DNA of 64,000 nucleotides from Tetradesmus obliquus (lineage: Eukaryota > Chlorophyta > Chlorophyceae > Sphaeropleales > Scenedesmaceae): contig CP126206.1 in NCBI GenBank assembly GCA_030272155.1, positions 2,108,001 to 2,172,000 on the forward strand. Reading direction: 5' to 3'. A program made the translations under genes and the position numbers. The notes beneath the pieces are model-generated. The model searched no databases. It saw nothing but the letters and a program-made list of their open reading frames with translations, and was not told the origin of the DNA. Position 1 is the stretch's first letter, and the number at the start of each line of letters is the position of its first letter. Below, one piece after another: positions 1-64,000 of this stretch.

Positions 1-43
1 ACGTGCCTTTTGATTCGCGTCTGTCTCCCTTTCTTCCCTGCAG

Positions 44-542
44 GTGATGCGCCAGTGCCAGGCAACCCCAGTTACTCATGGACGCCGCTGTCGGCATCGG
101 GCTGGGCTGAGCAGCAAACCCTGTTTGAAGTCATCCTTTGACTTGCCTGTTGTTTTGCCTCTGTGATGCCATCCTGCAGGCGATGCGCCAGTGCCAGGCA
201 ACCCAACTTATTCATGGACCCCACTGTCAGCATCAGGCTGGGTTCATCCACAAGCCATGTTGCAGTCGCTCGTTGACTTTTTTCCACACACTCTTTTCGA
301 TGCGCCAGTGCCGGGCAACCCCAATATCTCCTGGACCCCACTGTCAGCATTTGGCTGGGCCCACCCACAAGCCCTGCTGAACTTTTGCTTACTTGTTTTG
401 TTTGCAGGCGATGTGCCAGTACCGGGCAACCCTACTTATTCATGGACCCCACTGTCAGCATCAGGCTGGTCTGAACAGCAGGCATGGTCACCTCACTCTT
501 TGACTCTTTTCGTCCTGCTCACTCTTTTCCACTCCCCTACAG
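44..542 (+). repeat. Tandem copies of the start of the protease exon at 543
   Basis: Four partial copies of the segment encoding DAPVPGNP-YSWTPLSASGW begin near 44, 180, 296 and 413; the complete exon starts at 543. Spacing is about 112-136 bp. Copies at 44, 180 and 413 keep a CAG acceptor; the copy near 296 has lost it. None continues into the catalytic DSG part, so none can replace the full exon. Confidence 0.85.
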
Positions 543-3500
543 GCGATGCGCCAGTGCCGGGCAACCCCAGTTACTCATGGACGCCGCTGTCGGCATCCGG
601 CTGGGGGGACTTCTTCGCTGTGGCAGTGGACCACATCAAGTTTGGGGACGAGCGCCTGGGCGTGCAACAGTCCATGTTCAGCAAGGGATACAGGACGGTG
701 CTCGACTCAGGCACCACGTTCATCTATCTGATAACCCCGGCATACAGGGCCTTCGCAGCAGCAGCAAAGGCGGCAGCCAAGGCGGCTGGCCTGCAGACAA
801 CCAGCGACGGCTATGGGGACATCTGCGTGAGTGCATATCATGCTATATTATAGTATGATTATTTTCAAATTTATATTGTAGATGTATTTATAAGAAAAAT
901 AGAGGCCTTTTTGGCAGCAGCCAAGGCGGCAGTTTAGGCGGCCGGCCTGCAGACCACCAGCGACGGCTACGGAGACATCTGCGTGAGTTTGGTACCGCTA
1001 CTGTTGTTCAATTCGATTACTTTGAATGTCGTCCGATAACACCACATTTCTTCTCCTGCCCTACAACAGCTGCAGCTTCAGCACGCCTTTTTGACGATCG
1101 TGGCCGTCATGCTAGCACTGCATTGCTGCATCTCCTACTGCCCGTGCCATGTTTTTGCCGCCGCTGCTGCTTCACACACAGTGGACGGGCGCCCAGGCGG
1201 ATTTTGCAGGGCTTGAAGAAGCCTTTCTCAATGCAGAGCTGCCGTTGTAGCACACTTCCTGATACAATCATATAAGTCATACTTGCTGTAACGTGTTGCA
1301 CCTGCCGCTGCCCCTGCCTCCGCTGCCGTCGCTCTTGCTTGTCAAACAGTGGACCGGCGCCCAGGCTGATTTCGCAGGCCTCGAAAAGGCCTTTCGAAAT
1401 GCTCAGCTGCTGTTTGTGGGAGGAGGCCTTTCACAATCATAACGATCATAACAGTTATGTCTGCCGTCACGTTCGCGCTGACTTTGCTGCATCTCGCACT
1501 GCTGCTGCCACTGCTGCTGCTACTCTTTCATACAGTGGACCGGCGCCCAGGCTGATTTTGCAGGCCTCGAAAAAGCCTTCCCAAATGCAGAACTGCAGTT
1601 TGTGGGAGGAGGCCTCCTACAATCATAACAATCATAACAACATGTGTGCCGTCACGCTCGCGCTGACTTTGCTGCATCTCGCACTGCTGCTGCCGCTGCT
1701 GCTGCTATTCCTTCATACAGTGGACGGGTGCCCAGGCCGATTTTGCAGGCCTTGACAAAGCCTTCCCTAATGCTGAGCTGCAGTTTGTGGGCGGAGGCCG
1801 GCTGGTGCTGCCTGCGCACCGCTACCTGTTCCAGCTGTCAAGAAAGGGCAGCTACTGCTTGGCTGTGTTTGACAACGGCATGTCTGGGAGCCTGATCGGG
1901 GGAGTGGCAACACGTAACGTGCTTGTCAAGGTGAGGGCGGCTCGCTGCTTTTACACGAGATGTGTTTCGCAATGAGTGCGGACGGGTGTGCGGCGCGTGG
2001 CGTGACGGTCAAGCTGTGTGCAGCATGTTTTGTCAAGATGTTCAAATAGGGTTGCAAGGAGGTGGGCAGTGCCGCTATCTGTTCCAGTGCTCGAGGAAGG
2101 GCAGCTACTGCTTGGCTGTGTTTGACAACGGCATGTCTGGAAGCCTGATTGGGGGAGTGGCCACGCGCAACGTGCTTGTCAAGGTGAGCACGGCATGCAC
2201 TCACAGCCCTTGTTCAGCATGGTATGAAGGGTGTTGAGCAGTGGTGTCATTTGTTGTCATTTGTTGTCATCTGTTCCGGTTGTCGAGGAAGGGCAGCTAC
2301 TGCTTGGCTGTGTTTGACAACGGCATGTCAGGAAGCCTGATTGGGGGAGTGGCCACGCGCAACGTGCTTGTCAAGGTGAGGGCGGCTCGCTGCTGTGTTT
2401 GCATTGAAGCCGCGCATGCATTTGCGGCCGCAACGTGCATGCAAAGCTGCACATGACACCTGTTCACGTCCCATGTTTAAAAGGGTGTGCAGCGCTACCT
2501 GTTCCAGCTGTCAAGAAAGGGCAGCTACTCCCTGGCTGTGTTTGACAACGGCATGTCTGGGAGCCTGATCGGGGGAGTGGCAACACGCAATGTGCTGGTG
2601 AAGGTGAGCACGGGATGCAGTGGTGTTATGCTGTGCTGTGCTGCTCTAAATGCTGGGCAGTGCCGTCACCTGTTCCAGCTGTCAAGAAAGGGCAGCTACT
2701 GCTTGGCTGTCTTTGACAACGGCATGTCTGGGGAGTGGCAACACGCAACGTGCTTGTCAAGGTGAGGGCGGCTAGCAGTTTATGTTATATGCTGCATACA
2801 CCTTGTGTTTGCTTGTTTGCGAACACCTTGTTTCTGCTTGAAACAAGGAATGCAGGGGCAGCTATTGCATGGCTATCGTTGGCTGTCTTTGACAATGGCT
2901 TGTGAGGCAGTCTCATTGGCGGTGTTGCAACTATTGTACAGGCTTGCAGCAGGGCTGTGACTGCGCCGCTGGCTTGCAGCTGCTTGCTTACGGGGTTTGA
3001 CACCTCCAACACTGCTTGCATTCTGCTGCCGCCTGCTGCTGCTGTTGTGCAGTATGATCTTGAAGCTAGGCGCGTGGGCTTTGCCGACGTGGACTGCCAG
3101 GCACTGGGGCAGATGCCTTCAAGCAAGGTGAGGCTTCAGGTTTTAGGGTTGATTGCAAAGGTTTCAACGGGGTACATATGAATCAAGGGGGGTCGGCTTT
3201 GCTGACGTGGACTGCCAGGCACTGGGGCAGATGCCTTCAAGCAAGGTGAGGGTGCAGGGTTCAGGGTTGACGGCTGAGGGTTTTGACAGGTGACATCTGA
3301 ATCAAGGGGGGTGGGCTTTGCTGACGTGGACTGCCAGGCACTGGGGCAGATGCCCTCGAGCAAGGTGAGGCTGCAGGTTTAAGGGTTGATGGCTTAAGGT
3401 GTTAACCGGGTACACTTGAAACAAGGAGGGTGGGCTTTGCTGATGTGGCTGCCAGGTGCTGGGGCAGATGCCCTCGAGCAAGGTGAGGCTGCAGGGTTCA

Positions 3501-4657
3501 GCCAGGGTTCAGCCAGGGTTCAGCAAGGGTCCAGGGTCTGTCAAGGGCTCAGCAAGTGTTTAGCAAGGGTGCAGCAAGTTCCAGGGTTCAGCGAGGTGAA
3601 GGTCCAGGGTTCAGGATCAACCAACCAATGCCTTTCCTGTTTTTTGCCGTCAGTCACCCCTGCTCTCCTACCTTTTACTTGCATGGGTAAACCATGCACA
3701 CCAGGCGTGGCTATGTGCCTTGTGACACCATGCTCGCTTGCTTTTGCGCGGCAACACTGCAGCACATAGCCATTAGGGTCGCAGGTGGCAAGGGTTTCAA
3801 CTCTGCCTGGCTTTGTACTTTCTTGCCCGCAGTTCACGCCGCCTCCCAAGCCCCCTCCAGTGACAGCAGCTCGTCCAGCTGCTGCTGTTGTGACAGAAAC
3901 AGCTTCAAAGCAAGCTGCTGCAACTTCCGCAGCAGCAGCAGCAGCGGCGGCAGCAGCAGCAGCAGCAGCCCGGCCTGCTGCGGCAGCAGCCGCGCAAGCA
4001 GCAGCAAAAGCAGCCGTTGCGCCATCAGCAGCAGCAGCAGCAGTGTCAACATCTCCTTCCGGGATCCAGCTGCAACAGGCAGCTGCAGCAGTCTCACCAC
4101 CACCTGCAGCAGCAGCAGCAGCTGTGCCTGCAAAACAGCAGCAGCAGCAGCTACCCCCGGCAGCAGCACCAGCACCAACACCTCCCCCAGCTCCTGCACA
4201 GCAGCAGCAGCCGCCAGCGCCGCTGACTGCCGCAGAGATCCAAAAAGATCTCGACATCCTGGACAAAGCAGAGGAAGCATATGATGAGGCATATGAACAA
4301 GCTGCAAGCATTATGGATAAAGCAAAGCAGAAGGTCAAAGGCATTATCACAGGAGTCATAGCAGTACATGCAGATCAGGCAGCTGCGAGTTCCAGCCCCA
4401 GCGCCAGCCCTGCTGCTGCTGCTGCCGGTGTAGCAGCAGCAGCCGGGCCGCCAGCAGTTGCATCAGAGTTGGTGTCTGCAACGACGCCAGTAGCAGACGC
4501 TGCTGCTGCTGCTGCTGCCGACGTGCAGCAGCAGCAGCAGGCAAGCCCAGCAGCAGCAGCAGAGGGGCAGCAGGAGCTGCCAAAGGTGTATTGGGGTGTG
4601 CAGAACCCTCCCCTGCCACCACCGCTGCCGTCACCACCAGCTGCTCCAGCAGCAGCC

Positions 4658-4706
<49 letters not shown>

Positions 4707-4852
4707 CGGAGCTTGTCGGAAATGCCTCCGCCACTACTACGTTTGTGCCTGACCCATCTGTCAATGCAAGTGCAACAGCAGAACCTGCCACTACTGTGGC
4801 AGTGTCGGAGTCTCTGCTTGAACCTAGCAGTGCAGATGACGCCGCCGCCGCC

Positions 4853-4886
<34 letters not shown>

Positions 4887-5688
4887 AGTCTTCGCCAGAG
4901 CCTGCTAAGGTGTACTGGGGTGTCAGCAATCCCCCACCGCCACAGCCGCAGCAAGTCACTGGCAGTGCAGATGACACACAGCCAGCTGCAGCAGCAGCAG
5001 CAGCAGATGGTGGCCTGCTGAATAGCATAAGCCCCATGCTGCTGCTGATATTTGCAGCTGCATTTGGGGCTGTGCTGCTGGCAGTAGCAGGTGCAGTGGC
5101 ACTTGCAGTGCGCCGGCGGGCGATCAAGGCGGCGGGCTTTAGCCGAATCTCAGCTGCAGATATTGACTGCGAGCTTGCAGGAATATCGCGGATCAACCCC
5201 AACACAAGTTCGAATTCAAATTCAAACTCGAATGGAAACTCAGCTGGGCTGAACGGCAGCAGCGGCGGCCGGTTTGGTGGCAGCAGCAGTGGCGGTGGTG
5301 GTGGTGCACCGTCGCGGCCGGCTGTAGTAAGCAGCGCTACAGCAGCAGCAGCAGCAGCGGGTGGTGGCCGATCCGGCGGCGATATAACACTCAGCGGCCT
5401 GCAGGATTTGCATGACTTGGATCTGGATCTAGATCTAGATGCAGCAGGTGCAGATCCTGCTGGGTTTGGGGTTGACTGGGATGCCATAAAGAGTCCTGCA
5501 AGGGACCAGGCATCACCAAAGCCTGCCTTTGGCGGTTCAAACGGAGCAGCAACAGCAGCAGCAGAAGACAGCAGCAGCGGCAACTTTGCAGGACTGCTGC
5601 CGCCGCCGCGGCAGCTAGGAGCAGCAGCAGCAGGGGGTGCGCCACTGCTGCAGCCGCCGCCGTCTGCCGGGTCTGTGCGGCAGCAAAG

Positions 5689-5727
<39 letters not shown>

Positions 5728-5953
5728 GGGCAGTCGAAGGTTAGATGCTGATGCAGATGCGGCTGGTAGTTTGCAACAAGCAGATCAGATAGCAGAGCCT
5801 GCAGGTGTGCAGCAAGCAGGAGCAGCAGCAGGGCGTGACAATGCGTCAGCTCATGCTGCTGCTGGCAGCGGCGGCGAGAGCTTTGTGCATGCCGCGTCAT
5901 CTGACAGCATGGAGCTAATCTCGCTTGCTGATGACGCACATAAGCAGCAGTGA
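543..5953 (+). CDS. Membrane-anchored pepsin-like aspartic protease (family A1), 5' part outside the window
   Basis: Exons that join in frame: 543-826, 1721-1930, 3053-3127, 3833-5953 (TGA stop); earlier exons, including the first catalytic Asp, lie off the left edge. Exon 1 carries VLDSGTTFIYL, the second catalytic Asp-Ser-Gly motif of A1 peptidases (Asp codon 704-706). Exon 2 reads GGGRLVLPAHRYLF, then YCLAVFDNG and LIGGVATRNVLVK, and exon 3 reads YDLEARRVGFADVDC; this order is the C-terminal lobe of plant and algal aspartic proteases. The last exon adds about 700 residues of Ala/Pro/Gln/Ser low complexity, two similar KVYWGV-NPP motifs (near 4580 and 4910), one hydrophobic membrane helix (about 5034-5106) followed by an RRR stop-transfer cluster, and a Gly/Ser/Asp-rich presumably cytosolic tail. 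Family assignment is firm; substrate and membrane are unknown. Each exon has decayed tandem copies beside it. Confidence 0.85.
940..1620 (+). repeat. Partial copies of protease exons 1 and 2
   Basis: A copy of the end of exon 1 (LQTTSDGYGDIC plus its GTGAGT donor) lies at about 940-986, after an in-frame stop. Three copies of the beginning of exon 2 (WTGAQADFAGL-KAF) start near 1177, 1347 and 1531, each behind a (C/T)ACAG or AACAG acceptor. The copy at 1531 is closest to the native exon at 1721. Confidence 0.8.
2068..2940 (+). repeat. Tandem copies of the 3' half of protease exon 2
   Basis: Copies of the segment YLFQLSRKGSYCLAVFDNGM through the donor recur at about 2072-2183, 2266-2375, 2490-2603 and 2668-2762, plus a degenerate one near 2850-2940. 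The first three keep open frame and a GTGAG donor. The fourth has lost the SLIG segment. The native exon is 1721-1930. Confidence 0.85.
3187..3481 (+). repeat. Tandem copies of the protease exon encoding GFADVDCQALG
   Basis: Three copies, about 120 bp apart, of the 3' half of exon 3053-3127 with its GTGAGG donor lie at about 3187-3247, 3307-3365 and 3427-3481. The last has an internal deletion. They are followed by short GGTTCAGC-type tandem repeats at about 3495-3610. Confidence 0.85.
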
Positions 5954-6305
5954 GAAAACGACAGCTGCAGAATGCCGATGACGTGTTTGCGTTGTTTGTT
6001 TGGGCTTGAAACGTGCGTTGCTGAAGGTGATGACTGACCGCCAGTCTAATGATTGAGCAGAGGCATAGGTATTGGCGCATGTAATGCACAGTGTATGGCA
6101 TCTGCTGCAGAGCTGCGCTGCAGCACAATTGCACCAGCCGGCTTGGATTGATTCGGGCAACTGCAGCTGTTGCGTCATCTGACAGCATGGAGCTAATCCC
6201 GCATGCTGATGATGCACGAAAGCCGCAGTGAGAAAACGACAGCTGTTGAATGACGATGACACGTCATGTGCTTTTGTTTGGGTACAAAATGTGTGTTGCT
6301 GAAGA
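5893..6305 (+). repeat. Duplicated 3' end of the protease gene
   Basis: The last codons, the stop and about 100 bp of 3' flank (about 5893-6030) recur at about 6170-6305 with substitutions. The second copy again ends in a CAGTGA stop context. It is non-coding as it lies past the real stop. Confidence 0.8.
6080..6084 (+). other. Candidate polyadenylation signal of the protease gene
   Basis: TGTAA, 127 bp past the stop codon. TGTAA is the usual near-upstream element in Chlorophyceae. It lies between the two copies of the duplicated gene tail, which would leave the second copy outside the transcript. Confidence 0.45.
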
Positions 6306-7523
6306 TGTTGTCTGGCATTGGGCAGATATGCATGGGTACGACAGCGCATGTCAGTGCTGCACTGCATCTGGCATCTGCTGCACAGCTGCGCTCCAGCACT
6401 TAATGTGCCAGCCGGGCTGTGGCTCGTGTCATGTGATATCCAGCAATTGTAGATGTTGTACAAGGTGCACGCCTGCATCTGCAATGGCGAGCATGCAGCC
6501 TGCATATGGACGCACCACATTTTGAGAATTCATAGGCACATTGACTAGGTAGCGTTGTAGACATGCAGTTGCAACCATACCCCTCGGTACAGCATGTATA
6601 TTTGTGTATCTCTGTTTGTGCACAGGACGTTTGAAGATGGCATGATAGCTTTTGACCGGATCGCAGCCAGCGTGGCATCAGACGAGTTGATCGAGCAGGA
6701 TGTGCTGTTGTGGATCCAATCAGGGGCTGCTTGCTGCTGGCTTTGTGGCAGGGCAGGCATTGGAGTCCTTGCACATTCAGCCATGCTTGAAGGTGCGCAG
6801 CTTTGCATTTATCATGCTAGACTGTCCATCTTTACAGTGCAGTTGTCGTCTAAACATATCAACTGTGGCATGCATGTCATGTGTGGTGAAGTGGTGCTTG
6901 AAATTCAGGTATTCTTGCTGTTTGGCTTTGTGGCGGGCAGGCACCTGCCAAATCCTTGCACAGTGCAGTTGTCGTTGGCAGGGGGTTTGCAGAGTTCCCA
7001 GCATGTAAGCGTTGGACTGCAGTGCGCGTGTTGTTTACATATAGTTTGCAGAGTTTCTAAGCATGCAAATGTTGCGTAAGCGTGGCATGCATTGTGTGCA
7101 TGCGGTTCTGGCACAGGGTGCATGCGTGTGCAGCGTGTTCAAGGGCTGTGTGAGCTGGAACCTTTGCTTTGTGCAGTGTGCACAGTTGTCATTTTTAACG
7201 CGCACTGCAGCTGCAGACGCAGCACGTGAGCAGGAGCGACGCAGCAGGGCTGTGCCTGCCATGGCCATGCAGCTTGTTCCACATGCAAAAATGTTTCCAC
7301 TTGCAATATGCCCTCCATATTCCACAGCATGCCATGCTGTGATGCACAGTGTGCATCTGCAGGATGTGTCGGCTGTTCAACAGCAACAACGTGTGAACCC
7401 CTTGCGATTTCACTGTGGCCTTTCGGGGGACCACTTCTTGCCATGTGAGTACTCATTATGTTGCATGATGGTTGTGCTTGTGCTTGTAATGAATTCAATT
7501 CGGCAACTGTCTTTATATTTTTT

Positions 7524-7566
7524 GGGGTGGCCACCCACCATGATCATCATGATGGCGGCCCACCAC
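7524..7566. repeat. Imperfect inverted repeat
   Basis: A roughly 43-bp imperfect palindrome with a GGTGGCCACCCACC-like left arm, centre near ATGATCATCATGAT, and a right arm rich in GGCGGCCCACCAC. No role can be assigned. Confidence 0.5.
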
Positions 7567-7596
7567 TGGTGACTGGCAGTACAGGTAAAATGACGA

Positions 7597-7690
7597 AATC
7601 TAGACAAAGCCAGGATACCGAAGCACGCTGGTCATGCACAGCTGCGCACCTTCAAGCAATGCTGAGCCAGAAGACCCCCACCAAAGTCTC
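7597..7690 (+). repeat. Dispersed repeat, copy 1
   Basis: Shares TCTAGACAAA-CCAGGAT, ACGCTGGT, TGCACAGCTG and CTTCAAGCAATG blocks with 54048-54126, and the block GCTGCGCACCTTCAAGCAATG with 51816-51862. The three copies lie near three unrelated sequences, so this is an interspersed element and not a local duplication. No terminal inverted repeat or tRNA-like box was seen. Confidence 0.6.
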
Positions 7691-8888
7691 CTGGCACTCC
7701 AAGTGGGGCTGTTCATGTAGGCACAGGTGATGGTGATCAGCAGTCGATTGCAGTGAGTGGTACCAGCCTGCCAGGCTCAGCCTGGCTTACCAATGGTGTT
7801 GCATTATGCTTGTGCTTGGAATGTATGACCTGCTTGCACGTTGTAATCCTTTTACACTGCACTACATAGTACTACAGCATGATGCTGAGCATGGCGTGAT
7901 ACAACCAAATCGCCACCTGCGAATCGTGCACTGCGCGTGTGCGCCTGTTGATGTAGTGCAGATTCCAGTTGATAGGCAGAGGGGCAGCTCGACTCGCTAC
8001 GCCTATGAAGCACGGCCCCTGTGTGTTAGCACCAGCTGGTGACTTGCTGTAAGTATCGCTGGATCTCTATGTGAGGCAGGTTTAATTAACTGAAATGATT
8101 CAAAAACGTTATGGCGTTGGCTACAGCTTCGGGGCTGCCTTGCTCTCACCGGGTCCTTGCAAGTGCGTGACTAGGACGCAAATGAGGGCTCCCAGTGTTC
8201 TGCTGAAGGCGTTGAAATCGTCTGAAACGTAATCATGGTGATCTAAATGGTCTTATAAAACGTGGACCAAGCTGCTGCACGCCCGCAGAAGGAGGTGCAA
8301 AGATCACTCCCGGTGCCTACCCACGTGACGTCAACGAAATATCAGTATGGACTATATTTGAGTAACAAAACGAGTGGAGGCTGACGCGCTCGAAGGCTCT
8401 GTGGTGTGTCACCACTGTTGGTGCACGGCGATGTTCGCAACGATAACAAGGTTTGTGGTCGAACCCACACATCTGTTGTGTGTGCAGTTCATCTTATCTT
8501 CATCTGCCATCATGCAGTGTTTGTTTCTGAACAGAACTTGGCATCAAAGCGGCTAGGTGACCATCGTCAACCGCTTCATCCGACTTACCAAGAGTACCGA
8601 AGGACCTTGAAAAGGCCCGAACCAGTTCTTGTTGGTTGTTTAAAGCCATTTCATACGAGTATTGGCGCCAACTCGTTCGGTGAAGCGCACCAGGTGCGTG
8701 TCGCTACCTCAGTCTCTAGCTTCTAGCCCTGCCACCGCATTCACAGTCATCAACACTTACCTATTATGGTATATCGTGTCCTTGAACTGCCGCAGGTGCC
8801 TTAAGTCAGGCGCATAGGAGGCTAAGCCAGGTGCACTGGGCGCGCAGCGTGCGAATCTCTTGCCAAATCGCCATTCGATCGCACCAAA

Positions 8889-11810: not shown

Positions 11811-11813
<3 letters not shown>

Positions 11814-11879: not shown

Positions 11880-11884
<5 letters not shown>

Positions 11885-13509
11885 GCTGCTGTTCAGTATC
11901 GATGGTGATACATGCTTGGCAGTTGCCGGTGCGTGTGCGCGTGTGTGTTGATCCCACACAGAACCTACCATTCGGCCGATCTGTCCACCATTTTGGTAGC
12001 ATTTTTTGCACGCAAGTGTTGCAGGCACTGCACTGCACTGCAGTAGCTCCCAGGCCCTATGAACTGGGGTCTGCTGTTGCCGCCCGGTCTCTTTTGTGCT
12101 GCTTGTATGCAAAGCTGCAGCAACTGTAAGACAGAGTGCATGCTGCTGCGGCTGCTGCTGCCAGGTTGCAGGCAAGGTTGCAGGTTATGCGAGGCCCGGA
12201 TGTGTGCATTGACCAGTCAGGGTTTGGGTTTTTGGCTGTTCCCGCTGACAGCCATGGTTGAGGGCATTGTGGTTTTGTCAGGAGGATTGCAGAGTTGAAC
12301 TGCAGAAACCTCAGCATGCACAGGGATGTAGCTATATGCTAAGTACGTTGTGGTGTGTTGGTTTTTGTCAGTGCAGCGGCAGGAGGCTGCCAGAGCAGCA
12401 GCTGCACAGCACATTCCACTGCTGCTGCGGCTGCTGCTGCTGGCCGTCTGACATGCTCAACACCTTGTCCACACATCTACGTATTAAAAAGGGCAGCAGC
12501 TGCAGCTGCACACAGCCGATGTCTGTGGGCTTCACAACAATACTGTGTCAATCCATAGCTACCCTGCTTGGTTTGATATTGTTAATTATCCTGTTTGGCA
12601 TCACTAGGCTTGTCAGGTTGCGGTTTGGTAGCGCATTCAAGGCATGTGCAGCAGCAGATGCGTGCTGCTGCAGCAGCTGCTGTCCCCTGGACAGGCCTAC
12701 TTGCGTGTTCTTGTTTTCCCTGCAAATACACCTCTGCGCCAGGCATGCACCGGGCGGTTTTAGAACCAGAGAACCCTGTGCAAAATGCGGCAGAGTGGCC
12801 CTGGGCAGGATTCTCCTGTTCTGGTGCTGTGCTGCTTCAGTGTACCTGGGACAGCTTCAGATGTGAGTCTTGCTATGGTTGTGTTGTGTCTGCAGACGCC
12901 TGTGGGCGCTGTTTGCTGTGAGCTTGTGCAGTGTGGTGCATGTCACGGGGCAAGGACATGTCACACACAGCACAGCACAGTCCAAACATCAGCTTAGTTT
13001 CGTGTGAATTTCGTGCATGGGTAGCATGCTTTTGTCAAAACTTGAGCATTGGCGCAGCAGCTGCGCTGCTACGCTGTGCAAGTCTCTGCACAGAGTATGT
13101 TCATACCAGTGCCGGCACTCAGCTGCTGCAGCTGTGCACCGCATTGTGCACGTTAGCAGCAACAACATTGTACGGGCTTTCAAGTGAATCCCTGCTCTGC
13201 TGGAACCGTCGCTTGCCGCCTGGTCAGTTTTGAACCGTTCTGGAACTGTTTTGGCCGCTGCTGCGTCATGCATGTATGTCTTGTGTCATGTTTGGTGCTT
13301 GACCACGCGTGATGTTCCCCTGTTATTGCGGTGTCATAGCTTTGCTTGATGGAGCCGCAGTGGTGCTTGGTTATGGTGCATTAGCTTGCTGTGACTTGTA
13401 TTGGGCCTGGATTCGCTGAATCAGACTGCTGTTGTGCAGCAGTGGTGCTTGGATATGGTGCATCGGCTTGCTGTGGCTTGGATAGGGCCATTGGATTTGG
13501 TGCATCAGT

Positions 13510-14200
13510 TTGAAGTTGTGCTTGGATCAGGCGGATCAGGCCCTTGGGTCAGGTGCATCAGTTTGCTGCAGCACACTTTGATCAGGCCATTTGATGTGGT
13601 GGATCAGATTGAGATCGTGCTTGGATCTGGCCCTTGGATCGGCTGCATTGGGTTGCTGTGACATCTGGATTCAGTGGACCAGACTAATGTTGTGCTTGGA
13701 TCAGGCGGATCAGGCCCTTGGGTCAGGTGCATCGGCTTGCTGCAGCACACTTTGATCAGGCCATTTGATGTGGTGGATCAGATTGAGATCGTGCTTGGAT
13801 CTGGCCCTTGGATCGGCTGCATTGGGTTGCTGTGACATCTGGATTCAGTGGACCAGACTAATGTTGTGCTTGGATCAGGCGGATCAGGCCCTTGGGTCAG
13901 GTGCATCGGCTTGCTGCAGCACACTTTGATCAGGCCATTTGATGTGGTGGATCAGATTGAGATCGTGCTTGGATCTGGCCCTTGGATCGGCTGCATTGGG
14001 TTGCTGTGACATCTCGATTCAGTGGACCAGACTAATGTTGTGCTTGGATCAGGCGGATCAGGCCCTTGGGTCAGGTGCATCGGCTTGCTGCAGCACACTT
14101 TGATCAGGCCATTTGATGTGGTGAATCAGATTGAGATCGTGCTTGGATCTGGCCCCTGGATCGGCTGCATTGGGTTGCTGTGACAGCTGGATCACATTGA
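13510..14200 (+). repeat. 174-bp minisatellite, about four units
   Basis: The block GCACACTTTGATCAGGCCAT recurs at 13571, 13745, 13919 and 14093, exactly 174 bp apart. Units are near-identical and are themselves built of shorter TTGGATCAGG / GGATC-rich sub-repeats that extend, more diverged, from about 13390 to 14300. No coding function is evident. Confidence 0.9.
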
Positions 14201-14645
14201 TGTTGTGCTTGGATCAGGCGGATGAGGCCCTTGGGTCAGGCGCATTGCAATGCAGTGACACTTCACTTGGATGAGGAGGTTGGTCAGAATGCTGTTATGT
14301 TTGGATCACTTGGATTAGGCATTTGGGCCAGTTCATGTCTGATTGCGCCCTGTGCATCCATATACTACTGCTGCTTGATATATGCACTTGTGTACATGTA
14401 TGTGGGCTGGCAGCGTTGCTTGCTTGATACTAATCAGCAGACTGCGGCGGCTGGTGCTGTGGAGGGTGGATGAGCCCACTCAAACCATGCCCAGGGCCGC
14501 TGCAGTTGAACACCTGCTGTATTGCCTGCTTACCTGCAGCCACAGGACTGCTGCAGAGCCGCTTTGATCCGGGTGGATTGTCTGCCAGTTCATGGCAGCT
14601 GCATGCTGCTGTTTTGTTTGTTTTGTTGTCGGGCACTGCATCACA

Positions 14646-18637: not shown

Positions 18638-18638
<1 letters not shown>

Positions 18639-27154: not shown

Positions 27155-27214
<60 letters not shown>

Positions 27215-37265: not shown

Positions 37266-37317
<52 letters not shown>

Positions 37318-38748: not shown

Positions 38749-38792
<44 letters not shown>

Positions 38793-39224: not shown

Positions 39225-39289
<65 letters not shown>

Positions 39290-47441: not shown

Positions 47442-47524
<83 letters not shown>

Positions 47525-47540
47525 CCGCTGCCGCCGCCGC

Positions 47541-47600
<60 letters not shown>

Positions 47601-47926
47601 GCTGCAGCGCGCGCCTACCTGGAAGACTTGAGGGCAGCCACGCAGGGTGGTGATGACGAAGATGATGCTGATGGAGCAGCAGCAGCGGGGCTGGATGACG
47701 ACGAGCTGGCTGAGAAGCTGCGCCAGGACGCACTGGAGGTGAGGACTTGTCACATAACATTGTTACTTTTTGAATGTGCCGGGAACTCACTGCCATAAAG
47801 GGATGCTGATGGAGCAGCAGCAGCGGGCCTGGATGACGATGAGCTAGCTGAGAAGCTGCGACAGGATGCGTTGCAGGTGAGTGATGTGTTGCTGCAAAAC
47901 TGCTGATGATGTTGCTGATGATGATT

Positions 47927-47962
<36 letters not shown>

Positions 47963-50900: not shown

Positions 50901-52163
50901 GTCTTTGAGGCAGGCAGGGGTCACATGTGCAGGTGGGTCTTGGGGTTGGCCGCTGCCTTTGTCACTGCCTTTGTCACTGCAAGTTAGCATGTGACCTGGT
51001 TTCCAGTGGCGGCACAGCCCACGCCATAGGCTCTGCAAGTAAGTCACTATTCATGTTCCTGCCTTGCTGCTGCTGCAGAGCTACCCGGGCCACCGTGACC
51101 AGGTGTCCGGCCTGGCCTTCAGGGAGGGCACACACACGCTGTACAGCAGCGGCTTCGACAGGTGAGAATGGGGCATAAATCATACAACGGAAATAAATCC
51201 CTATAACTGTGGTTACATCGTTCTGCAAATGCATGCGCAAGTACATGCAGGCGCCATGTAAGAATCAAAGCGAGCAGTACAGCTGCGGCTGCAACAGGTG
51301 TGCGCGGCTCATCAAGAGCTGGATTTATGTCAGTGACGACATGTGGCACCAGCAGCAAGCTCGCATATTGCCGTGCCAAATGTTTACGGCAACTACGCTA
51401 CCACAGAGAACTTCCCACTGCTTGCAGGACAGCGAAAACCTGGAGCCTGGATGACGGCGCGTACATGGACACGCTGTCTAGGCATTAGGTAAAATTGTTC
51501 TCATTGTCCACTGCGAACTTCCCACTGCTCGCAGAACTGTGAAGATCTGGAGCCTAGATGACGGCGCGTATGTTGACACGCTGTTTGGGCACTAGATAAC
51601 ATTGTTCTCACTGTCCACTGCGAACTTCCCACTGCTTGCAGGACTGTGAAGATCTGGAGCCTGGATGATGGTGCCTACGTGGACACGCTGTTTGGCCACC
51701 AGGCGGAAGTGTTTGCGCTGGATGCTGCGCGCGCGGAGCGGGTGGTCAGCGTGGGGCACGACCACACGTGCAGGTGAGCTAGCTCAGCGCTGATGTGAAA
51801 TGACTATACAGTAAGCAGGGCTGCGCACCTTCAAGCAATGCTGGACCAGCAGACTCCCTGGTCTATAGTTGATGTGTAGATCTGTATGCGTGTTCTGGGA
51901 CCTGCTGTAAGTTGCCAGAGAGAGCTGTGAAGCCAGCACGCAGCGTCAGCGTGCGTCACAGCGCATGTGCAGGTGATTGATCGCTGCACATGATGCGTGT
52001 GTCTTGCTGCCGCCAGGGATTGCGGCTACTGTGGCTGCTAGGTCTTGCACTGCATGTTTACGATATCTTCACCCTGCTGCTGCTTCTGTGCAGGCTGTGG
52101 AAGATCCCTGAGGAGAGCCACCTGGTGTTCAGGAGCCCCAGCATGGCGCATGATATGCTCACC

Positions 52164-52222
<59 letters not shown>

Positions 52223-52296
52223 GCAGGCTGTGGAAGATCCCTGAGGAGAGCCACCTGGTGTTCAGGAGCCCCAGCATGGCACATGATATGCTCACG

Positions 52297-52345
<49 letters not shown>

Positions 52346-52426
52346 AGGCTGTGGAAGATCCCTGAGGAGAGCCACCTGGTGTTCAGGAGCCCCAGCATAT
52401 GACACATGGTGTGCTCACCCTGCTGC

Positions 52427-52495
<69 letters not shown>

Positions 52496-53677
52496 AGGCT
52501 GTGGAAGATCCCTGAGGAGAGCCACCTGGTGTTCAGGAGCCCCAGCATGGCACAGTACGCGGTGTCATACGTGACAGGCAACGAATGGGTGTCAGGCGGC
52601 GCCGACGGCTCGCTGCAGGTGGGTAGCGTAGTGACGCTGTGGCGTTGCATTTGTCACCAGTGGTGAAGTGGAGTGTCATACGTGACTGGCAACGATTGGT
52701 TTTCAGGAGGCGCGGACGGCTCCCTGCAGGTGGGTTGCAGTTTAGATGGTTTTGGGTGCTGCAGCTGCAGTTGGCTGTTCTGTATGTCACCATCAGCAGC
52801 AGCGGTGTATTGGCGTGTCATACGTGACTGGCAACGAATGGGTGTCAGGCGGCGCGGACGGCTCCCTGCAGGTGGGTGGTGTAGTGACACAGCATGCTAG
52901 GCATATTATTCTCAGCGTGTTCGCAGCTTGTGTGCAATCATTGTATTGCAGGACACTGCCGCACTGCTTCTGGACTTGATTCATAGCTGGCTGTTTCTAT
53001 CGCGTTTTCGCGTTCCGCGTGCAGGTGTGGAACACCATGAAGAAGAAGCCGCACCTATCATCACCTGCACTTCATACCATTAGTGAGCACTGCCGCACTG
53101 CTTGTGGGCGTCAATCAGAACCGATGGTTGTTAACCGAGTGTCTCGTGCTGCGTGCAGGTGTGGAACACCATGAAGAAGAAGCCTCAGAGCGTGTACCGC
53201 AACGCACACGTCAGCCGCAGCAGCGGCGCAGCAGCAGCAGCAGCCCCTGCAGATGCAGGCCCCGACGCAGCAGCAGCAGCAGCAGATGCCGACGCAGCAG
53301 ATGCAGCAGTAGCAGCCGGCCTGCCCAGCAAAGGCAGCTGGAGCACAGCCAGAGTAGACACCCCAGGCTGGATCCAATCCATAGCTGCCTGCAAGGGCTC
53401 TGAGATTGTTGCTAGCGGTGCCGGAGATGGCTTTATTCGGCTGTGGGCTGTGCAGCCGAGTAGGCACGGCGGGGCTGGATCTTTGAAGCCTGTTGGGGCG
53501 CTGCCTGCTGCTGGCTTTGTGAATGGGTTGGCACTGGGGCGGTCAGGCAGGCTTTGTGTTGCAGCATTGGGTCAGGAGCCGCGCTTAGGGAGGTGGGGCA
53601 GGGTGGGCAATGCGCGCAACGGGCTGCTGGTGCACCGCTGGGAGCTCGCCGACGATGGTGCCAGCGATGACGAGTAG
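46690..53677 (+). CDS. RRP9: RRP9 / U3-55K, WD40 protein of the U3 snoRNP, 8 exons
   Basis: Exons 46690-46873, 47608-47738, 48329-48588, 49118-49313, 51079-51161, 51642-51773, 52498-52618 and 53159-53677 join in phase (1626 nt, 541 residues, TAG stop). RRP9 binds the U3 snoRNA box B/C and acts in nucleolar processing of 18S pre-rRNA. Visible: basic N-terminus KRSTKAAAGAGRKRSRKED (nuclear signal) followed by an acidic stretch; the RRP9-type helix IRLGARAYLEDLR and ELAEKLRQDALEAQGRLQR; then WD repeats ending KDGSILKWDVE, GGDKMVHVFEA, SSGFDRTVKIWSLDD, GHDHTCRLWKI, SGGADGSLQVWNT, SGAGDGFIRLWAV; and the family hallmark near the C-terminus, GQEPRLGRWGRVGNARNGL. A poly-Ala insertion lies between the last two WD repeats (53227-53320). 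An in-frame ATG at 46648 would add 14 residues, mostly Ser. Confidence 0.92.
47395..47600 (+). repeat. Long (CTG)n tract before an RRP9 3' splice site
   Basis: About 200 bp of CTG with CCG and GTG interruptions, ending in CTGTGCTGCAG, the acceptor of the exon starting at 47608. Long open frames of poly-Leu, poly-Ala or poly-Ser on both strands are by-products. Confidence 0.95.
47795..48012 (+). repeat. Two downstream copies of the end of RRP9 exon 47608-47738
   Basis: DADGAAAAGLDDDELAEKLR with donor recurs at about 47799-47876, and a shorter YDELAEKLRQDALE copy with a (CAG)n run at about 47930-48012. Both end in GTGAG donors. Confidence 0.9.
48160..48230 (+). repeat. Copy of the start of RRP9 exon 48329-48588
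   Basis: TTCTCAG|GCGCAAGGCCGCCTGCAGCGG at about 48192-48222, with an intact acceptor but a diverged continuation. Confidence 0.8.
48655..48830 (+). repeat. Two copies of the end of RRP9 exon 48329-48588
   Basis: SILKWDVETMQRTQLVR and donor recurs at about 48658-48710. A decayed one (EGDAETMQCTQLVR) is at about 48778-48828. Spacing is about 120 bp. Confidence 0.85.
49474..50935 (+). repeat. 270-bp tandem array of RRP9 exon 49118-49313, six extra units
   Basis: The 3' part of the exon (SSLLAAAVSSDGR-LAVGGG through HVFEAGSGTHVQ and the GTGAGAGG donor) plus about 164 bp of intron recurs every 270 bp: units near 49474, 49744, 50014, 50284, 50554 and 50824, the last truncated. Copies differ at only a few sites (GACGGCAGGTACC vs GATGGCAGGTTCC; GTTCAT vs GTGCAT; GGAATTC vs GGAATAT). 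Confidence 0.97.
51421..51600 (+). repeat. Two copies of the start of RRP9 exon 51642-51773
   Basis: TTGCAG followed by TVKIWSLDDGAYVDTL-like sequence at about 51421-51488 (CAGCGAAAACCTGGAGCC variant, then TAG) and 51529-51595 (KIWSLDDGAYVDTLFGH, then TAG). Both have acceptors and end in stops. Confidence 0.85.
51816..51862 (+). repeat. Dispersed repeat, copy 2 (short)
   Basis: GCAGGGCTGCGCACCTTCAA and GCAATGCTGGACCAGCAGAC match 7640-7676, inside an RRP9 intron. Confidence 0.55.
52092..52400 (+). repeat. Three copies of RRP9 exon start separated by (CTG)n runs
   Basis: GCAG|LWKIPEESHLVFRSPSMA recurs at about 52094-52150, 52228-52285 and 52347-52400. Each is preceded by a TGC- or CTG-rich run (52165-52220, 52300-52345, 52418-52494) ending in the acceptor CAG. 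The native exon starts at 52498. Confidence 0.95.
52672..53060 (+). repeat. Copies of the ends of the last two RRP9 exons
   Basis: VSYVTGNEW-SGGADGSLQ copies at about 52674-52731 (with a 1-nt context change) and 52815-52871, each with a GTGGGT donor. A copy of the start of the last exon (GCAG|VWNTMKKKP) is at about 53022-53055. Confidence 0.85.
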
Positions 53678-54040
53678 TAGCAGCATGCCAATGCCGTGCA
53701 GCCATCATCACGATGATATGATAACATGTGGTGTGGTCTGCGCAGACCAGCACACTGAGTGTGCAACGGGCTGCTGGTGCACCGCTGGGAGCTTGCGGAT
53801 GATGGCGGCAGCGATGAGGAGTAGTGGCAGCACCCTGCTGGTAGTGTGACATCAGGCACCACATGCATGTGGCGTAGCATGTGGTAGGTCCTGGTGAATG
53901 TGCAATGGGCTGCTGGTGCTTCAGTGGGAGCTTGCAGACAATGGCGGCAGCGATGCCGAGTAGTAGCAGGATCATGATGCCAACGCCATGCAGCCCTCAT
54001 CGTGATGATGATATGATAGCATGTGGTGGGGTCTGCTGAG

Positions 54041-54045
54041 TGTAA
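54041..54045 (+). other. Candidate polyadenylation signal of RRP9
   Basis: TGTAA, 364 bp past the stop, inside the duplicated tail region. Confidence 0.3.
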
Positions 54046-54047
54046 AA

Positions 54048-54126
54048 GGATGAATCTAGACAAATCCAGGATCTCGAAGGACGCTGGTACTGCACAGCTG
54101 TGCACTGCGCAAGGCTTCAAGCAATG
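54048..54126 (+). repeat. Dispersed repeat, copy 3
   Basis: AATCTAGACAAATCCAGGAT, ACGCTGGT and GGCTTCAAGCAATG match copy 1 at 7597-7690 over about 80 bp, with a short internal insertion. Confidence 0.6.
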
Positions 54127-55239
54127 GCGATGGTGTCTGCTGAGTGTGCAATGGGCTGCTGGTGCTCTGGTGGGAGCTTGCGGACGATGGCGGCAGCGAT
54201 GACAAGCAGCGGCAGCACACCAGGTGCCACATGCAGTTGGCAAAGTATTTGGTGGGGCCTGATGGTGGTGCCAGCGATGATCAGAAGGTGCACCCACCAG
54301 GTGCAGTTCACAGATAGTTGGCGAATGGCATGTAAGCATGTAGCAGTGTATGGATAAGCAGCTGCGCAGCTGTCAGTTGGTTGCTTGTCACAAGCGGCGC
54401 CCGGGTACGTGTTGTATTGCACAGGGCGTGCCTTGGTGGGCTGCCGCATTGTGATGTGCAGCTGCTGCCAGCGCTGCTACAGTGTAATTAATGAAAACAT
54501 GTGGAGTGTTGGGCACGTTTGATGTGCCAGACTGGACGTTTGGTGCCGAAGCAAAGCCAGGCGTATCCTTTGCTGTGCAATGGGCTGCTACTAGTAGTGC
54601 ACAGGTGGGTCCTTGTTCCAGTCCTTGCGGCGGCGGGTGAACGTGATGTTGCTGAGATCCATGCTACTGCTTTCAGATCCAAGCGTGACGCAAGCCTGAG
54701 AATGCAGAAATCGGTGTTCAACATCCTTTAGCGCCTGTCTTGTGGTGGGAAAGTCGGTTGACTCCTCAGCTGATGCATGTGCGTGTCATGCATTCACAGC
54801 TGGCTAGCCGGCAGGCACGTACCCGCGTAGGAGGGCCATCAACGAAGCGCCCGCAACCCCAAAGTGTGCATTGAGGAGTCTATAGTGGAACTTTGGCTCC
54901 AAAAATTTCTGAAGTTGTGCGTTACGGTTGGCATCATCGACGATGACTGTGTGCACAGACATCATCAGCCGTCCATCAGCAATCACAGTCCAGGCGGTAT
55001 CGGTGTGCACTTCATGGTCTTTGTTTAGTACTTGCCGTGTGTTGAGTTATTTGCAAAAGCCAAAGCGTGCCTTCAATTGTGCTGGAACCCCAACCGAGGT
55101 CTTATTGGGCCACTGCACACAACTTGTATCTGCCAGCTTTGCAGCTCAGTCACTGTCATTGGTGTAGATCGAGTGCAAGCTGTGTTGTTGAGTGTGCCAC
55201 ACCTACACCAGCCTGCCAACCTCGCTTGCTGCCTGTGAG

Positions 55240-61106: not shown

Positions 61107-61139
61107 TCAATCACCGTCTTGCGCCTGAACACCGATGCT

Positions 61140-61290: not shown

Positions 61291-61331
61291 TTGCTGCTGC
61301 TGCTGCGCTCAGTGGCGCCTTGCTGCGCAGC

Positions 61332-63949
61332 TCAGCTCATCAACATACTCTGACCAGCTTCTTCCCGCTGGACATCAAAGCTGCGCATGCTGCTTACAAA
61401 CACCACCGGCTGCATGTTGCGCGCCCAGCGCTGGGCCAGCACCTGTTTGTGTGCTATCCTGCAGCAGCTCATCGGCTGGCCTGCCTCCACCACCAGCTGC
61501 TCGGTGCCGCATGTGGCTGCGCCCAGCAGGTCAGCTGCAAAGCCGAGCGGGCTGCTGTACAGCTGCACATAGATTAAGCGCGACAGGGAGAATGCGGCAC
61601 AGGCAGGCAGCATGACAGAAAGCCAGTGAGTCAGGTTGTGTGCATGTGGAGTGCAGCGATTGGACAAGTGTAAACAGCTAGACTGTGGTATTGTTTGATC
61701 AGCCTGAAGCAGCTCATCGGCTACCCTGCCGCCACCACCAGCTGCTCAGTACCGCCTGTAGCTGTTGCCAGCAGGTCGGCTGCAAAGCTGAGCCGGCTGC
61801 TGTGCAGCTGCATGCAGAATAGGTCAAAGAGGGAGCATGCAGAACAGGCAGGCAGCATGACAGGAAACCAGTAAGTGAGGTTGTTTGCATGTGGAAGGCA
61901 GCAACTGGACAATGGCTAGACTGCGATATTGGTTGATCAGCCTGCAGCAGCTGAGCTGCTCAGTGCCTCCTGTGGCTGCTGCCAGCAGGTCAGCTGCAAA
62001 GCTGAGCGGGCTGCTGTACAGCTACATGCAGACCAGGCAGAAGAGGGAGCATGCGGCACAGGCAGGGAGCGTGAACGAACATCAGTGAGTGACGTTGTGC
62101 TGCAGTGCGCCCAGCAGGTCGGCTGCAAAGCTGAGGGTGCTGCTGTGCAGCTGCATGCAGAATAGGTGAAAGAGGCAGCATTCAGAACAGGCAGGTAGCG
62201 TGAAAGAACATCAGTGAGTGGCGTTGTGCTGCGCCCAGCGGGCCGGCTGGCAAAGCTGAGGCTGCTGCACAGCTGGTTGTGGGTTGGGGCAGAGGATGAG
62301 TACACAGTCCAACATACAGCAGGGACTGTAAGTGCCAAAGCGGCGGTCGGTTGTATCAATCTGTAAGATGCAACAACCAAAAAGCTAGCGTTGGCTGAGC
62401 ATTGGTTTGGTTCACCAGGTGATGCTGACGTTGACACAGCTGTACCCCTGCAGGCTGCTGTGGGACTGTCTATCTGCATCTGCTGCTTGTGCTGGATTTC
62501 ATTCCACCCTGCCGTACTGATCCAATCATTGAGTCACACAGCTGGCACTGGCACCTGCTATCTAGCTGGCTGTGCTCACCAGTCTGTACAGCTGGCAGCC
62601 GGCTGTGCTGCGCTGCAGCTGCTGCTCCAGGCTGCTCAGGCCCAGCAGGGCATTGATGTGTCTATGTGCAGGCACCAAAACCCTTTTCGTAACTTCTGAT
62701 CCGCTGTTGCACTCACCAGTCTGTACAGCTGGCAGCAGGCTGTGCTGTGCTGCAGTGCTGCTCCAAGCTGTTGAGGCCCAGCAGGGCATTGATGTGTCTA
62801 TGTGCAGGCACCAAAAACCCTTTTCGTAACTTCTGATCCGCTGTTGCACTCACCAGTCTGTACAGCTGGCAGCAAGGGGTGCTGCGCTGCAGCTGCTGCT
62901 CCAGGCTGCTCAGGCCCAGCAGGGCATTAATGTGTCTATGTGCAGGCACCAAAAACCCATTTCTTAACTTCTGATCCGCTGTTGCACTCACCAGTCTGTA
63001 CAGCTGGCAGCAGGCCGTGCTGCGCTGCAGCTGCTGCTCCAAGCTGTTAAGGCCCAGCAGGGCATTGATGTGTCTACGTGCAGGCAACACAACAGCTCTC
63101 CCTAATCCCGCTGTCACACTCACCAGTCTGTACAGCTGGCAGCAGGCTGTGCTGTGCTGCAGCTGCTGCTCCAAGCTGTTCGACCCAGCATGGCATTGAT
63201 GCGTCTATGTGCAGGCAACAGGTCACCTCTCCCAAAAGCAGCTGTTGCACTCACCATTCTGTACAGCTGACAGCCAGGTGTGCTGCGCTGCAGTGCTGCT
63301 CCAAGCTGTTGAGGCCCAGCAGGGCAATGATGTGTCTATGTGCAGGCACCAAAACCCCTTTTTGTTACTTCTGATCCGCTGTTGCACTCACCAATCTGTA
63401 CAGCTGGCAGCAAGGGGTGCTGCGCTGCAGTGCTGCTCCAAGCTGTTAAGGCCCAGAAGGGCATTGATGTGTCTATGTGCAGGCAACAAAACCCCGTTTG
63501 TAACTTCTAATATGCTGTTGCACTCACCAGTCTGTACAGCTGGCAGCAGGCTGTGCTGCGCTGCAGCTGCTGCTCCAATGCTGTTGCATTTGATTTGTCT
63601 TTGTGCAGGCAATACCCTCTGTTTAATCCAGCTGTCACACTCACCCGTCTGTACAGCTGGCAGCAGGCTGTGCTGCGCTGCAGCTGCTGCTCCAAGCTGT
63701 TGGACCCAGCAAGGCATTGATGCGTCTATGTGCAGGCAACAGAACACCTCTCCCAAAAGCAGCTGTTGCACTCACCAGTCTGTACAGCTGGCAGCAGGCT
63801 GTGCTGCGCTGCAGCTGCTGCTCCAAGCTGCTGAGGCCCAGCAAGGCATTGATGTGGTTGGGGGGTGCCCGCAGCTGCTGCATCAGCTCGCTCAGCAGGC
63901 GGGACAGCAGGGTGTGCAGCCGCACTGCCTGCATATAGCCCGGCTTGAG
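61332..63949 (-). CDS. Unrecognised gene, 3' part only, continues past the right edge
   Basis: Best-supported exons on the minus strand are 63949-63776 (58 codons: LKPGYMQAVRLHTLLSRLLS, QQLRAPPNHINALLGLSSLE, QLYRL; acceptor is the end of a (CTG)n run, donor CTG|GTGAGT) and 61562-61332 (LYSSPLGFAADLLG, GTEQLVVEAGQPMSCCR, IAHKQVLAQRWARNMQP, then a stop at 61332). Both are phase 0, so they join in frame. The text looks helical and Leu-rich; no family is recognised. Which downstream copy is the true last exon is uncertain: an alternative copy (GTEQLVVEAGQPISCC, then VLYVPHAHTG) ends at a stop at 61107. Intervening exons may exist, for example around 62422-62452. Confidence 0.45.
61695..62265 (-). 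repeat. Tandem copies of the start of exon 61562-61332
   Basis: CAG|L(H/Y)SS-LSFAADLL-like copies at about 61735-61812, 61955-62025, 62105-62152 and (diverged) 62230-62272, each with a CTGCATGCAG-type acceptor. Those at 61735 and 61955 extend to the GTEQ/GTE region. Confidence 0.8.
62560..63770 (-). repeat. Nine tandem copies of the 3' part of exon 63949-63776
   Basis: CTGTACAGCTGGCAG marks units near 62585, 62722, 62859, 62997, 63129, 63262, 63399, 63534 and 63650; the native one is at 63779. Spacing is about 115-138 bp. Each has a CACATAG-type acceptor, about 82 nt encoding HINALLGLSSLEQQLQRST and QLYRL, and a GTGAGTG donor. Several have 1-nt deletions in the GCAGCTGCTG stretch. Confidence 0.92.
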
Positions 63950-63951
63950 CT

Positions 63952-63990
<39 letters not shown>
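63950..63990 (-). repeat. (CTG)n run forming a 3' splice site
   Basis: About 13 CAG triplets on the plus strand; on the gene strand the run ends in the CAG acceptor of exon 63949-63776. Confidence 0.9.
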
Positions 63991-63995
<5 letters not shown>

Positions 63996-64000
63996 GGCAG

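Follow-up and report, generated by a model that had tools for sequence, protein, structure and literature searches.

Short tandem duplications centred on coding edges and the length of introns in three genes of the green alga Tetradesmus obliquus

A 64,000-bp stretch of the Tetradesmus obliquus genome (contig C16, positions 2108001-2172000; hereafter the window) carries genes whose introns hold partial copies of the adjacent exons. In the three genes that we rebuilt, HDS, LCYE and RRP9, such copies account for 12,662 of 20,472 intron bases (62%), and our data support the claim of an initial annotation of the window that exon-edge duplication is what mainly lengthened their introns. We propose, with confidence and doubt in about equal measure, that these introns lengthen through repeated short tandem duplications that are centred on coding edges, and then through doublings of whole units.

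Three rebuilt genes

The window has a G+C content of about 56% and belongs to an assembly of 104.66 Mb in 17 contigs. According to the accessible text of PMC5966456, T. obliquus has 57% G+C and a mean intron length of 462 bp, versus 230-302 bp in four other green algae. The exons of HDS (18), LCYE (12) and RRP9 (the last 6) were set by hand, with the 5′ exons of RRP9 outside the model, and each rebuilt gene has a single open frame, of 725, 598 and 436 amino acids, respectively, the last for the six exons. HDS (plant-type GcpE/IspG; 23648-34026, minus strand) matches Pfam GcpE and NCBIfam ispG_gcpE, the latter over residues 64-706 with the whole domain covered. LCYE (lycopene epsilon cyclase; 35789-45818, minus strand) matches NCBIfam carotene-cycl over residues 103-516, again covering the whole domain, and is taken by us to be an epsilon rather than a beta cyclase from sequence features. 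RRP9 (U3-55K, WD40; 48329-53677 for the last six exons, plus strand) was recognized from two exons that match human U3-55K (PDB 4j0w/7mq8) in a search of one reading frame, while the joined 436-residue protein matched no NCBIfam model. The initial annotation had joined 18 exons for HDS and 12 for LCYE, one copy of each, and these open frames bear it out; six of its eight RRP9 exons are placed exactly and a seventh was seen.

Paralogues were considered as the origin of the HDS and LCYE copies and rejected, given that all six HDS-family (GcpE) matches in the genome lie within the window HDS gene and 33 of 35 LCYE matches lie within the window LCYE gene. The remaining two, at 37% and 43% identity, mark a distant LCYE relative on contig C5 (G000:C5:4559340-4562222), perhaps another lycopene cyclase. 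Apart from this relative, neither HDS nor LCYE has a second locus, and so no paralogue feeds their copies.

Extent and direction of the exon-edge copies

Self-comparison of the window, a check that the initial annotation had suggested, placed 24,226 of 64,000 bases (38%) in direct repeats with copies less than 3 kb apart. Of the 176 non-self pairs, 165 are direct and less than 2 kb apart, none is a local inverted pair, and those more than 5 kb apart comprise three direct and eight inverted pairs. Tandem Repeats Finder (TRF) reported many arrays in the window, with units of about 100-270 bp, some of them at 98-99% matches, in keeping with the claim that duplication is partly recent. Repeat clusters were then sought in the HDS, LCYE and RRP9 regions with low-complexity sequence masked. 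None of the 37 clusters found there is purely intronic: 36 share 25-115 bp with an annotated exon and the 37th (47664-48029) is, by reading, an upstream RRP9 exon.

When each of the 36 exons was compared with the introns or flanks on its two sides, 96 matches emerged: 56 involve a 3′ edge, 36 a 5′ edge and four, left out of the edge-copy counts, the exon interior; no match copies a whole exon. Every 3′-edge copy lies downstream (56 of 56) and every 5′-edge copy upstream (36 of 36), just as first reported. This direction had been offered as evidence of mechanism, for which it does not serve: it follows by definition from tandem duplication across an edge and needs no special mechanism, since after such a doubling the gene goes on using whichever copy is still attached to its exon, and the spare one is left on the intron side. 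At least one edge is copied in 27 of 36 exons (75%), so that the copies are real while "nearly every exon" was an overstatement. The copies are direct, adjacent and on the same strand, as in short tandem duplication, and they sit beside verified exons, in the introns or flanks; we consider their existence confirmed and beyond chance. Splice-site edges are not alone in being copied: in HDS, LCYE and RRP9 the stop-codon end likewise has copies, in the 3′ flank, which speaks against the earlier idea that splice sites are the sole anchor.

Unit size and centring on the edge

Unit size was measured at 40 edges, HDS exon 14 being left out since its copy does not touch the edge. The smallest copy spacing has a median of 130 bp (quartiles 120-142) and shows no helical (10-11 bp) phasing; values of 300 bp or more were left out of the spacing histogram, and the four edges with spacing of at least 200 bp were left out of a Kolmogorov-Smirnov test. 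The exon part of the unit has a median of 63.5 bp and the noncoding remainder, computed as spacing minus exon part, one of 65 bp, with 27-168 bp of noncoding DNA per unit, and the exon share is 0.48 with a standard deviation (SD) of 0.13. Breakpoints at exon midpoints were rejected as an explanation, the reach averaging 66 bp from the edge at the 11 edges of exons longer than 170 bp. Subtracting the largest copy offset per edge shrinks 33 introns from 20,472 to 7,810 bases.

One could suppose that random short tandem duplications arise everywhere and that selection keeps the coding half recognizable and recombination-competent while purely intronic arrays fade. Such survivorship would explain the stop-codon edges, a stop codon being visible to selection only, and some apparently noncoding clusters do occur in the sampled stretches described below. 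We modelled it by placing random tolerated duplications on collapsed genes, with mutation and similar detection. Purely intronic placements made up 125 of 393 simulated cases, versus 0 of 37 clusters observed, and every one of the 125 could be detected at 2-12% mutation per base; yet the three gene regions hold no such array, single- or multi-copy. The observed centring is not predicted either, the simulated exon share having an SD of 0.26, twice that observed, with 0 of 20,000 resamples as narrow; detection bias as the source of the centring is rejected by the same simulation. Survivorship alone thus appears disfavoured, within the terms of the model, and we consider it doubtful, whereas the focus of duplication on exon borders that was first proposed is upheld by these figures. 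Splicing alone does not account for this focus, because no splice site is present at the three edges formed by stop codons. G+C content falls from 63% in exons to about 45% in the first ~50 bp of introns.

Joints and known classes of elements

The joints between copies look sharp and share few bases, although the breakpoints come from local alignments of copies that have aged. Neither the alignments of the joints nor their base counts revealed a general AG/GT motif, and no other breakpoint motif was seen. The initial annotation had likened the arrays to intron gain by tandem duplication of AGGT-containing exon segments (the Rogers model), in which case the arrays would represent repeated gains. 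LCYE exons 2 and 11 do have joints of the AG|GT form facing an exonic GT, as that model would have it. Against it, a seamless GT/AG swap is possible in only 8 of 40 arrays, the other 32 lacking any compatible position; in most arrays the units do not start and end at AG|GT; each unit carries the noncoding DNA given above; and the copies lie within introns that already separate verified exons. The joints largely refute this likeness, and we judge the model very improbable here. A related idea suggested by two RRP9 arrays, that each copy is a complete mini-exon (AG|..|GT), was rejected on aligning the arrays.

Introners would place one family at many unrelated sites, whereas 11 of 176 window pairs lie more than 5 kb apart, no direct matches more than 2.6 kb apart exist inside any of the three gene regions, and no dominant k-mer family was found in 264 kb. 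A palindromic or introner-like seed element was rejected, k-mer and dyad scans having yielded no common family. Minisatellites have noncoding units, whereas the units in the three genes carry codon-patterned exon edges.

Coding-like differences in the copies

Differences between 91 copies and their functional exons are distributed as in coding sequence, with mismatches at 92 of 2095, 59 of 2074 and 353 of 2093 sites for codon positions 1, 2 and 3, respectively. Although the copies had been described as truncated or decayed, and all are indeed truncated, 73 of 91 have neither stop nor frameshift and differ mainly at third positions. The excess at third positions is present in intact copies, at single-copy edges (18/11/58) and even in the 18 copies broken by a stop or frameshift (30/17/90). 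Sequence context was rejected as its cause because rates derived from the intron parts predict an equal change of 0.20-0.22 at all codon positions. Free drift of copies, with silent change only in the exon, would give about 351 first- and second-position differences, versus 151 observed, and the rate ratio is 0.215 (0.173-0.269, resampling 40 edges), versus ~0.5 for freely drifting copies. A stricter subset of 57 copies realigned together with their intron part, which leaves out the 34 of 91 copies where that part aligns poorly, gives a weaker ratio of about 0.32 (87/61/234). The donor core is changed at 5 of 150 sites versus 217 of 1795 flanking positions (p 4e-4); the acceptor AG is less clear (4 of 70 versus 173 of 1327, p 0.09).

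These observations could mean that the half-exon copies are alternative exon ends with a coding role, whose frame and splice sites are kept by purifying selection. The codon-position pattern, the context rates that fail to predict it, the same trend in the sampled stretches and the conserved donor core, with the less clearly conserved acceptor AG, are all as such a role would have them. Alternative exons would nevertheless need splice sites on both sides, whereas splice signals at the inner joints are absent in most arrays and few arrays allow a swap. Copy spacing modulo 3 is 31/34/26 for remainders 0/1/2; because spacing ignores the reading frame, the arrays are not read through. The broken copies that still show a third-position excess, and the relaxed variants described next, also argue against it. 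Since most inner joints lack splice signals and spacing ignores frame, direct use of the copies as exons seems unlikely from the sequence, and a coding role is in our view improbable, more so than survivorship.

Variants were sorted into shared and unique at the 24 edges with at least two copies, single-copy edges being left out; at two-copy edges, "unique" may include changes in the exon lineage. Counts at codon positions 1/2/3 are 57/31/94 for copy-unique, 3/4/30 for shared and 3/1/42 for exon-unique variants. Older variation thus looks coding-like and recent variation more relaxed, and therefore the copies are not long-dead relics. Relaxation of unique variants is expected under our proposal because the copies would have left the functional lineage recently. 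The simplest accounts are a recent origin from functional exon ends that were already silently divergent, or selection that still reaches the copies. A four-gamete test on the LCYE exon 2 array found 326 of 703 site pairs incompatible. Nearby pairs (160 of 369) are incompatible about as often as distant ones (51 of 114), so that the test does not separate recurrent mutation from exchange.

Sampled stretches elsewhere in the genome

The genome-wide count suggested by the initial annotation was run on 20 stretches, each of 10 kb and at a fixed position. Coding sequence was predicted with a gene finder whose training set was the 36 verified exons alone; it recovers 33 of them exactly while calling 70 exons in the same sequence, many of them copies. 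A self-trained version drifted, and retraining cut the exact exons from 33 to 25 of 36; both were abandoned. Repeat clusters occur in 15 of the 20 stretches, 14 of which have clusters with predicted coding sequence. The fifteenth, L014, is a noncoding satellite: a large block at 932-8800, with a smallest spacing of 149 bp and inverted matches too, unlike the gene arrays. Its three clusters were left out of the cluster, edge, codon-position and coding-potential counts.

Predicted coding sequence is present in 71 of the remaining 102 clusters, versus 51 (SD 4.4) when the predictions are shifted (0 of 1000 shifts as high), and a predicted edge falls inside an aligned copy in 54 clusters, versus 43 with shifted predictions (2 of 1000 as high). 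The excess of coding sequence is clear but moderate. The rough gene finder gave 64 edge assignments, some clusters being counted at both ends; for the 53 with spacing below 200 bp (11 at 200 bp or more were left out), spacing is 127 bp and exon share 0.42 with an SD of 0.18. Copies in the sample (51 edge assignments, 105 copies, leaving out spacings of at least 250 bp and exon parts below 25 bp) differ at 107/95/300 sites for codon positions 1/2/3, the same trend as in the three genes, less strong.

The sample also bears on the possibility that the arrays are collapsed or false tandem duplications made by the assembler. Their copy numbers are indeed read from the assembly alone. However, clusters with predicted coding sequence were found in sampled stretches of 13 of the 17 contigs, edge copies differ from the exon by 0-47% on average at third positions and carry indels, and such graded, codon-patterned divergence is not a product of misassembly. 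We regard an artefact as the least credible of the explanations considered here.

Arrays of the three genes and other features of the window

On the minus strand, HDS has acceptor-edge copies at exon 4 (five, with a spacing of 106 bp, 32519-33119) and exon 11 (one, 28610-28822), and donor-edge copies at exons 6 (one, 31438-31710), 7 (one, with 25 bp of exon, 31048-31240), 8 (two, 30123-30475) and 13 (one, 26833-27095). Both edges are copied at exon 10 (29021-29746; donor-edge copies 29021-29425, acceptor-edge copies 29422-29746), exon 12 (27429-28464; 27429-27977 and 27980-28464), exon 16 (24755-25229; 24755-24949 and 24962-25229) and exon 17 (23845-24561; 23845-24219 and 24222-24561), in the same order. 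Exon 15 (25342-26327) has four donor-edge copies and one acceptor-edge copy, with two recent whole-unit doublings that are identical over their aligned extent. The partial copy of exon 14 (26436-26601) ends 28 bp before the donor edge, and the stop-codon end, without a splice site, is copied downstream (23491-23696).

LCYE, also on the minus strand, has its largest array at exon 2 (42239-45155), with 14 donor-edge copies spaced mostly by about 126 bp and two acceptor-edge copies. Both edges are likewise copied at exons 3 (three donor- and one acceptor-edge, 41437-42206), 4 (one and two, 40432-41162), 5 (two and three, 39420-40367) and 11 (two and two, 36162-37027). Acceptor-edge copies are found at exons 7 (one, 38855-39030), 9 (two, 37684-37984) and 10 (one, 37222-37379), and one donor-edge copy at exon 8 (38202-38488); the stop-codon end, without a splice site, is copied downstream (35631-35843).

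On the plus strand, the upstream RRP9 exon, whose 3′ end lies at about 47738 by reading, has 3′-edge copies at 47664-48029. Exon 48329-48588 follows with two donor-edge copies (48539-48832) and exon 49118-49313 with six at a spacing of 270 bp (49199-50935). Two unit types alternate in the latter array, and at three variant exon sites copy 2 agrees with the functional exon, the other state being common to copies 1, 3, 4 and 5, which hints at dimer-level duplication or conversion. Exon 51642-51773 has two acceptor-edge copies (51401-51702), exon 52498-52618 copies of both edges (52074-52888; acceptor-edge 52074-52554, donor-edge 52562-52888) and exon 53159-53677 one acceptor-edge copy with 29 bp of exon (52954-53187). 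Three copies of the stop-codon end, without a splice site, lie in the 3′ flank (53616-54218). CTG runs at 52162-52495 stand between RRP9 acceptor-edge copies. Long CAG/CTG runs are found in introns and coding sequence of the window (e.g. 27155-27221, 47387-47605 and 52167-52495), and CTG runs immediately precede several acceptor sites.

The initial annotation had counted six spliced genes with copies, on both strands. Besides the three modelled exactly (HDS and LCYE on the minus strand, RRP9 on the plus strand), two more were read by eye: an aspartyl-protease-like gene (Pfam TAXi_C; 1-3501, plus strand), with arrays at 33-605, 758-988, 1103-2779 and 3059-3501 and edges placed by eye, and an unnamed gene without a Pfam match (61400-63856, minus strand), with arrays at 61400-62268 and 62575-63856. 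A thioredoxin-domain match (Pfam) at about 56.5 kb on the plus strand has few local repeats around it. The tandem array of ~174 bp at 13354-14331 (96% matches, TRF) looks noncoding, unlike the exon-edge arrays. Palindromes like TAACATGTTA recur in window introns near donor sites (e.g. 23950-24110 and 36430-36640), and AACATGTT occurs nine times in the window, part of this count coming from array copies.

Discussion

In the course of events that we propose, a duplication of ~130 bp would start in coding sequence and end in the adjoining noncoding DNA, an intron or, less often, the 3′ flank. It would be tolerated if the message uses the copy joined to the remaining exon and the spare half-exon, with its splice site, is spliced out with the intron. 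Once two copies are present, further duplications of whole units would lengthen some arrays. Duplication itself, rather than survival, would be focused on coding edges. The spare copies may derive from functional exon ends that already differ silently, such as those of other haplotypes, or may exchange sequence with them, and would drift almost neutrally after their origin or exchange. A more tentative extension, which we think possible though clearly less probable than the growth of introns by edge-centred duplication, is that spare exon ends time and again derive from functional ends or exchange sequence with them. Selection on the protein would then extend into the intron and keep dozens of half-exons coding-like although they are not expressed, and coding edges, stop codons as well as splice sites, would be the focus of both recurrent duplication and exchange.

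The sharp-looking joints, together with PMC8355091, suggest that the first event may be end-joining repair of staggered breaks. In the accessible text of that work, fill-in of such breaks by CST/Pol alpha-primase followed by end joining gives small tandem duplications, in which microhomology is less frequent in wild type than in duplications of the Pol theta kind. The likeness lies in the small tandem duplications, and the same activity might operate here; the text describes mouse and human cells with Cas9 nicks and no link to exon edges, unlike the edge-centred units of T. obliquus.

Parts of the pattern are already in print, namely single boundary-crossing duplications (PMC4974935) and repeats near the ends of green-algal introns (PMC3887541), as far as the accessible texts go. 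In the potato RdRp gene, a single short tandem duplication over an intron-exon border left an exonic piece that is now intronic, as do the boundary-crossing duplications described here; that event produced a new intron with a new donor, whereas here 40 edges are involved, existing introns are lengthened and up to 14 copies occur per edge (PMC4974935). In Chlamydomonas and Volvox, intron repeats are likewise commoner near intron ends, but the abundant motifs reported are GT/AC dinucleotides rather than exon-edge copies with splice sites (PMC3887541). Drosophila introns have also been attributed to tandem duplication (PMC2891723). AGGT intron gain (Rogers, Hellsten, via PMC4974935; PMC2891723) shares with our arrays a genic tandem duplication whose spare piece is spliced out; it requires AG|GT at the duplicated ends, unlike most arrays here (PMC4974935). 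Internal gene duplications (Gao & Lynch 2009, via PMC4974935) arise within genes too, but those summarized there include entire introns, whereas no whole-exon copy was found in our genes. Among the matches listed in the open-licence literature, by titles and abstract openings, we found no report of genome-scale exon-edge arrays or of coding-like change in them.

Several observations weigh against our proposal. The noncoding part of the unit is now poorly aligned in 34 of 91 copies, and no single physical mark, be it splicing or the step in base composition, covers all edges, stop-codon ends included. Neutral drift after simple duplication cannot yield the observed codon-position ratio, and if other haplotypes were the source, silent diversity would have to reach, by our very rough estimate, 10-15%. 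In the realigned subset, the contrast between variant classes is weaker (copy-unique 44/28/66, shared 3/3/15, exon-unique 9/6/29). In the sample, five of 20 stretches (L001, L003, L006, L010 and L018) are free of clusters despite predicted coding sequence, 31 of 102 clusters have no predicted coding sequence, and coding potential exceeds the 95% point of intron controls in none of these 31, versus 20 of the other 71. Reading of finder-negative clusters gave noncoding-looking sequence in L015; in L005, four of five such clusters were read, three being exon-edge arrays and one an apparent coding repeat. Because of the finder-negative clusters and the noncoding appearance of those in L015, focusing is weaker or noisier in the sample than in the three genes. 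Taken as a whole, the initial interpretation is partly supported.

The origin of intron length is mostly unreadable, as the evidence decays. Here, 62% of intron bases can be traced to named exon edges through events of different ages, and the size, position and fate of the duplicated units are therefore measurable. Duplications centred on coding edges, stop codons among them, and noncoding copies whose differences resemble those of coding sequence are hard to accommodate in present models. Either a mutational process recognizes coding edges, or selection acts on sequences that it should not be able to see.

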